Shown: positions 10,692 to 14,975 of the stretch, piece after piece
Numbering within the stretch: position 1 is the stretch's first letter
How the letters are laid out: the number at the start of each line of letters is the position of its first letter
From: Bacteroidaceae bacterium
Lineage (GTDB): Bacteria; Bacteroidota; Bacteroidia; Bacteroidales; Bacteroidaceae
Reading direction: 5' to 3'
NCBI GenBank assembly: GCA_024401215.1
Contig: JAKSLL010000020.1
Span: 1 to 53,876 of the forward strand
Length of the DNA stretch: 53,876 nt
Notes under the pieces: generated by a model
What the model was told of the DNA's origin: nothing
Seen by the model: only the letters and a program-made list of their open reading frames with translations
The model's database searches: none
Program-made: the position numbers and the translations under genes

Positions 10692-10841
10692 GAAAAGAAG
10701 ATAAAAAGGCATAAGAATTTAGGCCCAATAACTATCCATAAAAGTACATTTAATGTATGTTTTTCGCCCGACAATCAACCTTTTAATGCCAAAAAGATGA
10801 TAAAAGGGTCATATCTACGCATGGATGTCACGATTATTTTG

Positions 10842-10849
10842 TAATTTTG
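10842..10849 (+). promoter_or_regulatory. Candidate -7 box for caspase-like operon
   Basis: TAATTTTG matches the TAnnTTTG consensus, but no TTTG lies 19-21 bp upstream. A start near 10856 would exclude the in-frame ATG at 10825 and supports ATG 10885, which opens directly into a signal peptide. Confidence 0.4.
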
Positions 10850-10884
10850 TACAATTAAGTAAAACATTGTTTGTAAATAAAGAA

Positions 10885-12309
10885 ATGAATCGATTAATAT
10901 TTTTATTTGCTTTTTTAAGCATTTCGCTTATAACGAAAGCGCAGACATTCTATGAAGTCAACTATATAGATGACGGCACAGAATACCTTGGTTTGATGAT
11001 ATACTATAGTGATGAGAAGTGCGTGATGCGACTTATCAATGCCGAGTCAATTGAAGAAAATAGTGTTTATGAATCTGAATATGTGAATTACATCGCAGAG
11101 AAAGAGGATGAACAAGACGTCGGCATGATGGCATATTTGCCTACAGAAAAGAAATTTCCGACCTTTGTATGGTATTGGGAAAAAGATGATGCAAGTGACA
11201 TCAGCGAGAGACCTTACGTCACATATAAGATAAAGAAGACTGATAGCTATTTTGAATCTGAATACTTCAAAGAGATAGGTCTTGAGGATATGGACGAAAA
11301 CTATGTTGCGCAGTTTTACGGCAAGGAAGAGCCTGAGTATCAAATGCTCGTTAGCGGCATCAATATCGTAAAGACTCAGTCCGGCGTACAATCTGCTTTC
11401 TCAACAAGACCAGCCGACATTGAAGTTACGGTGGACGACCCTATTGTGAGCAGTAATGTTGTCTTGAGCGAGGATGATGCAGAAGAGGGAGCCAACATTG
11501 AACCAGGCTCGGGAGGCAACACGCTCAATATGTCTGCGACAGCTGATATGCAAAAGGTTGACTCAAAATTCCATCTTATTGTTGTTGCCAATACAAATGT
11601 CAGCGACATAGGTTTGGCTTGCAAGCGAGATGTTGCAAATCTTTGTGGTGAGTTTGATGGAATATCAAGAGTGCTGGGTATGGAATATGATGTGCAGGTT
11701 ATCTCTGACAGAAATTTCAATAAAGAGAATCTGGTGAATCTCATAAGCGGATTTAGTCCTGCCAGCAATGATGTTGTGCTTTTTGTCTATACTGGTCATG
11801 GCTTCCGCTTTAATAATCAGCAAGATTATTATCCAAATATGGACTTGTGCCCATCTCAATATGACGACCCTAAAGACAACTATGTTGCTGTAAGTGATGT
11901 GTTTAAGCAGATTGTAGCAAAAGGTGCACGCTTGAACATCGTGATGAGCGACTGTTGCAACAGTAAGATAGGCGCAACAATCCCCCTCATCAATTCCAAC
12001 ACTCTTTTTTCACGCTCCAACACCAACTTTGACAAAGAGAAGCTGAAGCAGCTCTTTTTAGAAAGTTCAGGCACAATAATTGCTACTGCGTCAAGCCCGG
12101 GAGAAGCTTCATGGTGTGGCGTGAATGGAGGATTCTTCACATTGAGTTTTCTTGAAAGCCTTCGCAATCAGATCAGCGTGCTGACTACTACAAAGCCGAA
12201 TTGGGAGACTCTCATGAATGATGCTATAGCTGCTGCTGCAAAGAAATCGGCAGAAAATAGCAACTGCAAGACTCAAAATGGCATGAAGATGGTGAGAATC
12301 AAGAATTAA
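10885..12309 (+). CDS. Exported caspase-like cysteine protease 1
   Basis: The 474-residue protein has a signal peptide (about 1-20, ending TKAQ), an acidic N-terminal region of about 200 residues with no recognised fold, a low-complexity Ser/Glu linker, and a C-terminal caspase-fold (peptidase C14-type) domain. The catalytic dyad is visible: His in YTGHGFRF (near residue 304) and Cys in MSDCCNS (near 357). An upstream in-frame ATG at 10825 is rejected because it would mask the signal peptide. Bacterial members of this family are usually Arg/Lys-specific; here specificity cannot be read. It is followed by a second caspase-like gene and a Cys/Asp-rich lipoprotein gene on the same strand. Confidence 0.88.
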   Translation: MNRLIFLFAFLSISLITKAQTFYEVNYIDDGTEYLGLMIYYSDEKCVMRLINAESIEENSVYESEYVNYIAEKEDEQDVGMMAYLPTEKKFPTFVWYWEKDDASDISERPYVTYKIKKTDSYFESEYFKEIGLEDMDENYVAQFYGKEEPEYQMLVSGINIVKTQSGVQSAFSTRPADIEVTVDDPIVSSNVVLSEDDAEEGANIEPGSGGNTLNMSATADMQKVDSKFHLIVVANTNVSDIGLACKRDVANLCGEFDGISRVLGMEYDVQVISDRNFNKENLVNLISGFSPASNDVVLFVYTGHGFRFNNQQDYYPNMDLCPSQYDDPKDNYVAVSDVFKQIVAKGARLNIVMSDCCNSKIGATIPLINSNTLFSRSNTNFDKEKLKQLFLESSGTIIATASSPGEASWCGVNGGFFTLSFLESLRNQISVLTTTKPNWETLMNDAIAAAAKKSAENSNCKTQNGMKMVRIKN

Positions 12310-12447: not shown

Positions 12448-13401
12448 ATGAATTTATACATGAGAAAGTGTTTTACAATTATACTTCTGTTATGCGTCAC
12501 GCTGGCATCTTATGCTCAGCAGGAATCATTAGTGCCTTTTGCTGATAATGAGCAGGAGGCTGATCTTCAGTATTGCTATGCTATTGATGAGGCTGACGAG
12601 GAGGTGATGAGTCGTGCAACGCAATATGATAATGAGATATCTAACATATCAGATGCGAGCGACGAGCCAAGCAAATTGTGGGCTATACTCGTGGCAGACA
12701 CCTATGACAGAAGTATAGGCGATGATGATAAGCTTGACAATCAGATGCTTAATCGCGAACTTAAAGCTATAGCCAACTGTTTGGGTATAGAGATAAGTAT
12801 CACAAACATCTTGGCGAACGATGCTTATAACAAGCGAAATCTTGCTAATGCAATAAGTCGCATCAATCCCGGTCCTAACGATATCGTCTTCTTTTGTTTC
12901 AATGGACATGGGTTTAGATGGAACAATCAGAAAGACATGTATCCTAACATCTGCATGGGAAGTGGCAACAATAATTATGTATCTACCACCGACATCTACA
13001 ATGCGATAAAGGAAAAAGGCGCACGCTTGAGCATAGTATTTACTGACTGTTGTAATTCCAATTCAGGAAGTTATCGACCAAGGTACACAGAGAATACGCT
13101 TTACAGCCGTGCTAATGTACGGGCAAGCAAAAAGCGCATCCGCAGTCTTTTCCTTGAGTCTAAAGGTGTGTTGCTTGCTACAGCAGCAAAGCCAGGAGAA
13201 TACTCATGGTCATTCAGTAGTTCGGGAAGTGCATTCACACAGTCTTTCATCGCGCAGCTGCGTAGAGAGGTGAGCAATGATCGCACAGACGACACGAGTT
13301 GGCAGCGTCTGATTGACAACACGATAGAGGCGGCTAGAAAGAAGACGCTTGTATGCAAGAATAGTCAGCATGGAATGAGATATCTTAAAATGTCAAAGTG
13401 A
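12448..13401 (+). CDS. Exported caspase-like cysteine protease 2
   Basis: The 317-residue protein has a signal peptide ending SYAQQ (an ATG four codons later, 12460, is also possible), a short acidic spacer and a caspase-fold domain. The catalytic His lies in FNGHGFRWNN (near residue 154) and the Cys in FTDCCNSNSG (near 201). It resembles the catalytic half of the upstream protease (shared NGHGFR/TGHGFR, KGARL, DCCNS and C-terminal NGMK/HGMR segments) but lacks that protein's N-terminal region. The pair therefore looks like a duplication followed by divergence. The Cys/Asp-rich lipoprotein gene begins 19 bp after its stop, indicating an operon. Confidence 0.88.
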   Translation: MNLYMRKCFTIILLLCVTLASYAQQESLVPFADNEQEADLQYCYAIDEADEEVMSRATQYDNEISNISDASDEPSKLWAILVADTYDRSIGDDDKLDNQMLNRELKAIANCLGIEISITNILANDAYNKRNLANAISRINPGPNDIVFFCFNGHGFRWNNQKDMYPNICMGSGNNNYVSTTDIYNAIKEKGARLSIVFTDCCNSNSGSYRPRYTENTLYSRANVRASKKRIRSLFLESKGVLLATAAKPGEYSWSFSSSGSAFTQSFIAQLRREVSNDRTDDTSWQRLIDNTIEAARKKTLVCKNSQHGMRYLKMSK

Positions 13402-13420
13402 TAAATATAAAACACACAAG

Positions 13421-14014
13421 ATGAAAAAGCTTTTTACTCTTTTTATGGCAAGTATATTTATGCTTGCCTTTACATCATGTGACTTCGATTTCAACGAAGC
13501 AGAGCAGTTCTTATATGATGCGTCTATGGAGAATACATCTGATGCTTTGGATGAGTTTGATGAAGTCTATGAAAATTTTGAAACATACTCTACAGAAGAT
13601 CAAAACAATGTACTTGCCGGAGTTGCGAGTCTTATGGCGCAAGTAAAAAATGGTTCAGACACACAGAAGACACTTGAAGAAGCATTTGTCGAGATGTATT
13701 CTTATCTTGAAGAGAATGGCACTCTCGACAGTGAAGCTAAGTCTATGCGACATATTTATGTGGCATGCTGCAATGGCACCTATGGTAGCTGCGGAGATAA
13801 TGGCAGCTGTGGAGATTGCTATGATGACGATGAATGTGGAGGTTGCGAAGATGATGATGAATGCGATGGTTCTGGCGACTGCACTGGCGGTGGAAACAGA
13901 ACAAGAGTTGACAGGACAAATACCACGCGAACAGATGGCAATGCTGACGATTTCTACGGTGGTGCTACTGACGATGATGATGTGGAAAACAACAATGTCG
14001 CTCCAGGAGAATAA
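13421..14014 (+). CDS. Cys/Asp-rich lipoprotein next to caspases
   Basis: The 197-residue protein starts with a lipoprotein signal peptide (LAFTSC, Cys about 20). A helical acidic segment follows (about 25-105). At about 112-155 there is a dense cluster of nine cysteines interleaved with Gly and runs of Asp/Glu (CGDCYDDDECGGCEDDDEC). The tail is rich in Thr, Arg and Asn (RTRVDRTNTTRTDG) and ends in another acidic run. No family is recognised. The cluster could be disulfide-bonded or bind metal such as calcium or zinc; that is inference. Because it directly follows two caspase-like genes it may be their substrate, inhibitor or cofactor. Frame and stop are clear. Confidence 0.75.
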   Translation: MKKLFTLFMASIFMLAFTSCDFDFNEAEQFLYDASMENTSDALDEFDEVYENFETYSTEDQNNVLAGVASLMAQVKNGSDTQKTLEEAFVEMYSYLEENGTLDSEAKSMRHIYVACCNGTYGSCGDNGSCGDCYDDDECGGCEDDDECDGSGDCTGGGNRTRVDRTNTTRTDGNADDFYGGATDDDDVENNNVAPGE

Positions 14015-14048: not shown

Positions 14049-14975
14049 ATGAGTGTAAGCGAAGTTCCTATTTTATCCATCACAGGTTCTGACAGTTCAG
14101 GTGGTGCTGGTATTCAGGCTGACATAAGGGCTATTTCAAGTCTTGGAGGTCTTGCCGTGACTGTTGTAACGACACTCACAATCCAAAACTCACTTGGCAT
14201 TCAAGAGTTTTATGACATTCCTGCTGAAGTGGTGGAAAGGCAGATTGCAGCTGTGGCTGACGATGCTGCTCCTCACATATTTAAAATTGGCTTGATACGC
14301 AATGTTTATATGCTCGATGCTGTAGTGAGATGCATAAAGCGTTACCATCCTCAGTGGGTGCTTTACACTCCTATTGCTGCGTCAAGTCATGGTGATGAAT
14401 TGTTGAACGAAGAGCTCATAGACACTATACAGCTGCGTCTCATTCCGTTGTGCTCAGCCATTGTTGTTCATAGTCAGGATGTCGATCGCTTTGAGTGCCC
14501 AAACACTATCATAGCTGCCGACAGACACGGACATTGCAATGAACTATGTTCTGCCATTGCCGTTTTCCTCACTCAGGGATGCTCTCTCGATGAGGCTGAG
14601 AGAAAGGCTCGTAACATTACGGTTTCCAAGGAGATAGACTCCGAACTCTCAGGTCGCAATTTGGCTTTATACCGCGACTTCCTTGCAATGCAGGAAGAGC
14701 AATGTCTTAACAGCCATGATGTCAACTATTATGCTGAGCAGTTGAACATTAGCACTCGCTATCTCGCACAGATTGTGAGAAAGGTCGCCAACAGTTCGCC
14801 AAAAGTTATAATTGACAACACTCTTCTTTCAAAGGTGAAAAGCGCGTTACACTCCAATAAGACAATTCAAGAAATAGCATACGAATTGGGATTCTCATCG
14901 CAGGCTCACCTTACTAAATTCTTCCGCAAGATGACAGGTGTTCCACCAAGCGAATGGAGAAGACCTGCTCAATGA
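14049..14975 (+). CDS. Degenerate ThiD-like domain fused to AraC DNA-binding domain
   Basis: The 308-residue protein has two parts. Residues 1-200 match the ThiD/HMP-P kinase fold: ITGSDSSGGAGIQADI (11-26), the TTLTIQNSLGI segment and a C-terminal SAIAVFLTQGCSLDEAERKA helix. The active site is degraded: the family DPVM motif reads YTPIA (106-110), the TPN segment reads VHS (139-142), about 60 residues of the core are missing, and the catalytic GTGC motif is replaced by GHCN (161-164). Residues 222-305 are an AraC-type double helix-turn-helix (YYAEQLNISTRYLAQIVRK; IQEIAYELGFSSQAHLTKFFRKMTG). It is probably a transcription factor that senses a pyrimidine, B-vitamin precursor or related ligand without phosphorylating it. 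It is not next to thiamine genes. It starts 34 bp after the lipoprotein stop. Confidence 0.88.
   Translation: MSVSEVPILSITGSDSSGGAGIQADIRAISSLGGLAVTVVTTLTIQNSLGIQEFYDIPAEVVERQIAAVADDAAPHIFKIGLIRNVYMLDAVVRCIKRYHPQWVLYTPIAASSHGDELLNEELIDTIQLRLIPLCSAIVVHSQDVDRFECPNTIIAADRHGHCNELCSAIAVFLTQGCSLDEAERKARNITVSKEIDSELSGRNLALYRDFLAMQEEQCLNSHDVNYYAEQLNISTRYLAQIVRKVANSSPKVIIDNTLLSKVKSALHSNKTIQEIAYELGFSSQAHLTKFFRKMTGVPPSEWRRPAQ

Follow-up and report, generated by a model that had tools for sequence, protein, structure and literature searches.

The open reading frame at positions 14049..14975 (+ strand) of the window, by which we mean the whole stretch of 53,876 nucleotides analysed here, joins a ThiD-like pseudo-kinase to an AraC-type DNA-binding domain. 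It is a member of a conserved Bacteroidales family of such fusions, and this family is tied to pdxS and pdxT (pdxST), the genes of the synthase that makes the vitamin B6 cofactor pyridoxal 5'-phosphate (PLP), a cofactor essential to all known organisms according to a passage of PMC9997740. The fusion is probably a vitamin B6-responsive AraC-family regulator of pdxS-pdxT; we infer that the ligand is a B6 compound, that the protein works as a dimer, that it activates rather than represses and that the window copy acts on pdxST in trans. An earlier note on this DNA, made from the sequence alone, had found the target genes not evident, a view not supported by the co-occurrence and linkage with pdxST described below.

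The fusion of a ThiD-like domain to an intact AraC double helix-turn-helix, as proposed in that note, was borne out by domain searches with the product of this single uninterrupted reading frame of 308 aa. The N-terminal part (residues 1-198, positions 14049..14642, + strand), the putative sensor domain of ribokinase fold, matched Pfam PF08543 (Phos_pyr_kin) with an E value of 1.2e-37, over profile positions 1-124 of 246 only, and lacks the ATP-side segment; its length of ~198 aa, compared with 266 aa for E. coli ThiD, agrees with the previous estimate that about 60 core residues had gone. The AraC-type double helix-turn-helix (residues 225-305, positions 14721..14963, + strand), also seen in the model, matched PF12833 (HTH_18; E value 5.2e-21, 75.2 bits against a curated cut-off of 33.6) and PF00165 (40.5 bits against a curated cut-off of 26.6). 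The NCBIfam ThiD equivalog TIGR00097 scored 124.8 bits, below its cut-off of 204.95, and neither a GntR helix-turn-helix nor an aminotransferase domain was listed for the protein in Pfam or among the best 25 of 34 NCBIfam families. In the AlphaFold2 model, built with an alignment of 23 family members (mean pLDDT 88.7, pTM 0.66), the predicted fold of the N-terminal domain is ThiD-like, as expected from the earlier reading, and the top Foldseek matches in the PDB were ThiD-family kinases (7r8y, E value 1.7e-13; 1jxi, 4.4e-12). The matches also included 4ywr, an Acinetobacter ThiD whose entry names a pyridoxal compound in non-covalent complex with it.

The motifs described as kept or lost in the earlier note were likewise found in that state when the protein was aligned to E. 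coli ThiD. The substrate loop SITGSDSSGGAGIQAD is present (residues 13-25, GSDSSGGAGIQAD, positions 14085..14123, + strand), the catalytic HGTGC (E. coli residues 209-213) is replaced by HGHCN with Asn at the catalytic Cys position (14526..14540, + strand), DTVM (105-108), the counterpart of the DPVM motif given as lost, reads TPIA, and the KGGH segment (176-179) is missing. The comparison was extended to 31 family members (23 short and 8 long forms). The catalytic Cys213 occurred in none of the 31 (Asn in 21 and Ser in 2 short forms; Gly in 7 and Ser in 1 of the long forms), and the KGGH segment was missing in 23/23 short forms, while all 8 long forms kept Gly177 and none kept Lys176. By contrast with these losses, Gly11, Asp13, Gly19, Gln21, Asp23 and Gly79 were conserved in 31/31 and Gln44 in 30/31, so the substrate side is retained, whereas catalysis and, in the short forms, the ATP side appear to have been lost. 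On this residue pattern the domain is presumably a dead kinase with its substrate pocket loops retained.

Matches in one piece and of the same architecture were found in 35 of 101 relatives and, as short forms, in 49 of 399 genomes of the taxonomic family, which excludes the possibility raised earlier that a sequencing error had turned two separate proteins into one. Long-form fusions were present in 23 of the 399 genomes and intermediate forms, sought in 37 pdxS genomes, in at least three; in the short-form, long-form, order-wide and phylum-wide searches the first 5 to 8 candidates per genome were scored, with cut-offs of 1e-45, 1e-75 and 1e-60. Among 295 genomes from other families of the order, six fusion genes were detected in five genomes, and in a phylum sample of 247 genomes the window's own fusion alone passed 1e-60. 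The sole fusion among 80 of 584 named loci was that of Candidatus Colimorpha merdihippi, where the stretch stops just past the fusion. The search for further fusions and their conserved neighbours, suggested as a check in the earlier note, thus yielded a conserved family with pdxST as its recurrent neighbour.

In a tree of 39 fusions and five ThiDs, all fusions lay on one side of a branch with 100/100 support, which is consistent with a single origin. As trimmed for the tree, short rows were 293-332 aa and long or intermediate rows 328-388 aa, and the longer rows occurred at more than one place, so that repeated loss of the ATP-side segment is possible. Seven rows, referred to as group A, split off at 100/100; these include the window's fusion, one from another family (G078) and one from Candidatus Colimorpha. 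The fusion of G024 contains an internal stop. Two other genomes had ThiD-type matches within open frames of 506 and 513 aa (G135:C29 and G153:C5), perhaps ThiD joined to another domain. A lone ThiD, among the closest found, adjoins a fabD-like gene in B. fragilis (L043), B. faecis (L039) and G052 (L156), in the last case with an alpha-amylase gene nearby too (Pfam), and the fusion-pdxST unit of G213 (L177) adjoins alpha-amylase and acyltransferase (fabD-like) genes (Pfam); these shared neighbours suggest that the fusion arose from the lone ThiD beside the fabD-like gene.

The distribution of the fusion follows that of pdxS. Of the 399 family genomes, 86 encode pdxS, and at least 75 of these carry a fusion (49 short, 23 long and at least three intermediate), counts that come from related genomes and are not independent events. 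None of the 313 genomes lacking pdxS had a fusion at the short- and long-form search cut-offs, nor did any of 80 of them in a more sensitive control (E ≤ 1e-35), in which each match covered either the ThiD part or the HTH part but not both, and two of the ThiD-part matches ran through stop codons. No fusion was found in 11 of the 86 pdxS genomes (G057, G108, G133, G217, G230, G243, G269, G319, G365, G373 and G447), seven of which belong to one genus (g14); a candidate in G373, a ThiD match in a 393-aa frame beside a ThiH-like gene, was rejected as an ordinary ThiD with HGTGC.

Most fusion genes are also close to pdxS: of 76, 63 lie no more than 1.5 kb from it (61 share its strand and, judged by coordinates, have it downstream, and two are divergent), 6 fall within 10 kb and 7 are on another contig. 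Among the 31 loci that were read, 25 contained pdxS and 24 pdxT, the proteins matching PF01680 (SOR_SNZ) and PF01174 (SNO), respectively. Outside the family, five of the six fusion genes adjoin pdxST (G519, G699, G559, G464 and the long copy of G078); the sixth, a group A gene of G078, lies away from it. In that genome (L155, L131) the long fusion is divergent from pdxST and the group A fusion is ~57 kb off on the same contig, possibly as a result of horizontal transfer. Two further genomes stood out: G025 (L145; C27, C50) has two pdxS genes and two fusions, one fusion beside each pdxS, and G327 (L181) has an HTH-only fusion remnant, perhaps a decayed duplicate, directly before pdxS with a full long-form fusion ~7 kb away.

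The pdxST promoters, including that of the window genome, carry a position-locked operator-like site. A free motif search returned the -7 promoter box alone, and the site emerged after the promoters of pdxS or of the fusion-pdxST unit had been aligned on that box; a stricter -7 pattern missed most promoters. In groups B and C the site, TTTGTCAAAAnGGGAACA, lies 26-46 bp upstream of the -7 box and adjoins the -33 element, and in both groups the same B/C matrix showed, by computation, a second peak 20-21 bp upstream of the first. In leave-one-out tests, from which G003 (a near-copy of G002), G032f (short flank) and the group A promoters were excluded, the expected site scored highest in 21 of 29 promoters and came among the first three in 25, out of 288-476 positions in each.

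Group A promoters have a diverged form of the site, and the B/C matrix did not find the pdxS sites of the window genome (G000), G030, G037, G029 or G039. A group A matrix built on pdxS promoters from three genomes other than the window's was scanned over the window and three other stretches of its genome (~102 kb); the top of 203,546 positions was the site at the window genome's pdxS (G000:C202:66989-67015), with 18.1 bits against 13.3 for the next and a -7 box in register. The same matrix placed the G039 site first in its locus, and its scan of the G078 pdxS promoter found no group A form; the -7 anchoring had been done without the pdxS promoters of G037, G039 and G078, the G039 site coming from the group A matrix and the G037 site being read separately. 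As a pattern, drawn from four sites including that of the window genome, the group A form had one perfect match in the window genome, before pdxS, whereas at up to two mismatches it gave 3 and 4 matches against 6 and 8 for a reversed control; a second match with one mismatch (C4) looked coding and was taken as chance. Since the group A pdxS sites are mostly of one genus, promoter descent could explain part of their likeness. Before the fusion genes themselves, the B/C matrix ranked its site first in Colimorpha (20.7 bits) and G030 and second in G029. No operator was seen before the window fusion in the -7-anchored alignment or with the B/C matrix, whose top match in the window (51015, 17.3 bits) stood hardly above the next (16.3).

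In the window the fusion follows two caspase-fold (Peptidase_C14) genes in tandem (10825-12309 and 12448-13401, both on the + strand), whose products have starts resembling signal peptides, and a Cys- and Asp-rich open reading frame (13421-14014, + strand) that ends 34 bp before it. No -7 box was found within 200 bp upstream of the fusion or between 12889 and 14049, and this, together with the short gap on the same strand, indicates that the fusion is possibly co-transcribed with the caspase-like genes and the Cys-rich frame. A -7-like box (TAATTTTG) at 10842, within the first caspase-fold gene as listed, suggests that this gene may begin downstream of the ATG given for it. The caspase genes, the Cys-rich frame and the SusC/D-like genes had no match among the neighbours in 30 other loci; the caspase operon and the polysaccharide utilisation locus (PUL) were dropped as targets, given that the linkage is not conserved and that operator-like sites in the window are at chance level.

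In the window genome the fusion (C113) and pdxST (C202) are on different contigs. Within the same genus the two are unlinked also in G037 and G030, and linked in G029 (~2.3 kb before pdxS) and G039 (adjacent). The assembly has 7% contamination. The tetranucleotide distance of the whole window to the pdxST and thiamine (thi) stretches is 0.09, while its first 18 kb, which hold the fusion and are the least alike, stand at 0.169 from the pdxST stretch and so are not nearer to it than DNA from G031 of the same genus (0.133). A single organism is therefore likely, though composition supports this weakly, which slightly lowers our confidence in the best explanation. A thiamine operon on C209 encodes ThiC, ThiF, a radical-SAM ThiH-like protein, a ThiE/TenI-like protein and a true ThiD with HGTGC, and is preceded by a TPP-riboswitch-like element (G000:C209:15000-15092) that scored 52.2 bits, just below the gathering score of 54.3; at the gathering threshold Rfam returned nothing in the pdxST, thi and pdxK-like stretches. 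With its own true ThiD and riboswitch-like element, this operon was set aside as a target. The idea in the earlier note of a vitamin B1-pathway kinase turned sensor therefore stands in part: its sequence marks the protein as a transcription factor whose putative sensor is a ThiD-type pseudo-kinase, whereas the vitamin B1 role is not supported.

A cross-talk from B1 to B6, in which the family regulates pdxST in response to a thiamine-pathway compound (HMP or HMP-P), would fit a domain that scores as ThiD type and retains Gln44, Asp23 and Gly11 of the ThiD pocket; because Gln44 and Asp23 are common to true HMP kinases, the pocket itself gives no preference for B6 over HMP. The genomic context nevertheless makes an HMP signal unlikely. 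No ThiC, ThiH or ThiE match occurred among the 372 neighbour proteins of the 31 loci, and the sole ThiF-like match, with 30% identity in the G037 locus, could represent a general E1-like protein, whereas pdxS recurs in 25 of these loci; the thi operon has a riboswitch-like element of its own, and end-product feedback is the simpler logic. Continued activity of the domain as a kinase or moonlighting enzyme, with regulation secondary, would agree with the retained fold and substrate loop, but we regard it as very improbable when Cys213 is missing from every member examined, KGGH from every short form and its Lys from every long form.

There is also a small chance that the unlinked group A copies, the window's included, have been re-aimed, for example at the caspase operon or the PUL, with pdxST controlled otherwise. 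The position of the window copy, perhaps at the end of a caspase operon and far from pdxST, would suit such a change, as would the presence in G078 of a long copy at pdxST and a group A copy elsewhere. Against it, the group A copies of G029 and G039 are linked to pdxST, the group A site is present at the window genome's pdxS, and the window itself has two pattern matches at up to three mismatches where 2.1 are expected by chance.

Regulation of pdxST in response to vitamin B6 thus remains our preferred reading, and the following course is proposed for it. A ThiD-type vitamin kinase would have lost catalysis and, in the window lineage, the ATP-side segment, keeping the loops of a pocket that takes a small hydroxymethyl heterocycle, and the kinase remnant would have been joined to an AraC double helix-turn-helix. 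Without ligand, a dimer of the protein would occupy two direct repeats, spaced 20-21 bp and abutting the -33 promoter box, and would activate pdxST; a B6 vitamer (pyridoxal, PLP or similar) entering the dead active site would end the activation. The window copy would act on pdxST in trans. On balance we also favour the view that these proteins constitute a separate class of B6 sensor, in which a dead ThiD-type kinase, its ATP side worn away in a graded series (388 to 293 aa), takes pyridoxal or PLP in the old substrate pocket and switches an AraC domain that controls pdxST in most pdxST-bearing members of one Bacteroidales family. The prediction is sharp, with one operator, one main target and few candidate ligands.

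The closest functional parallel is PdxR, which passages of PMC5320631 describe as a MocR/GntR-family PLP-responsive activator of pdxST with PLP as anti-activator, and on which the proposed logic of activation and ligand shut-off is modelled. According to the same paper, several MocR regulators have direct repeats spaced by whole helical turns. Such dedicated regulators of pdxST as we met in the literature belong to the MocR type (PdxR), reported mostly in Proteobacteria, Firmicutes and Actinobacteria; MocR regulators exist in Bacteroidetes, where the PdxW and PdxQ groups are less common. Like PdxR as so described, the fusion family lies beside pdxST in most cases (not in the window genome) and would be an enzyme-derived B6 sensor, but PdxR combines a GntR helix-turn-helix with an aminotransferase-like domain, in place of the AraC double helix-turn-helix and ThiD-type kinase remnant seen here. 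The HMP/HMP-P kinase ThiD (1jxi; E. coli thiD) shares the fold and substrate loop, whereas the fusion lacks the Cys of GTGC and, in the window, the ATP-side segment, and has a fused helix-turn-helix. With the AraC/XylS family (AraC, MarA, SoxS) the fusion shares the C-terminal double helix-turn-helix; AraC has direct repeats ~21 bp apart and a cupin sensor, where the putative sensor of the fusion is a kinase remnant. Vitamin enzymes turned or joined into regulators of the genes of that vitamin are exemplified by ThiR, related to thiamine phosphate synthase, and by the archaeal bifunctional riboflavin regulator, which differ from the fusion in vitamin, enzyme fold and type of helix-turn-helix and are from Archaea. 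Neither a ThiD-AraC regulator nor a Bacteroidetes pdxST regulator was found named in a literature search that stayed largely outside subscription papers and covered long hit lists in part. Enzyme-derived vitamin regulators are a known kind, while the ThiD-AraC combination and its link to B6 appear to be new: a Bacteroidales group appears to have made a pdxST regulator unrelated to MocR out of a kinase, and its long and short forms illustrate the stripping of an enzyme down to a sensor.
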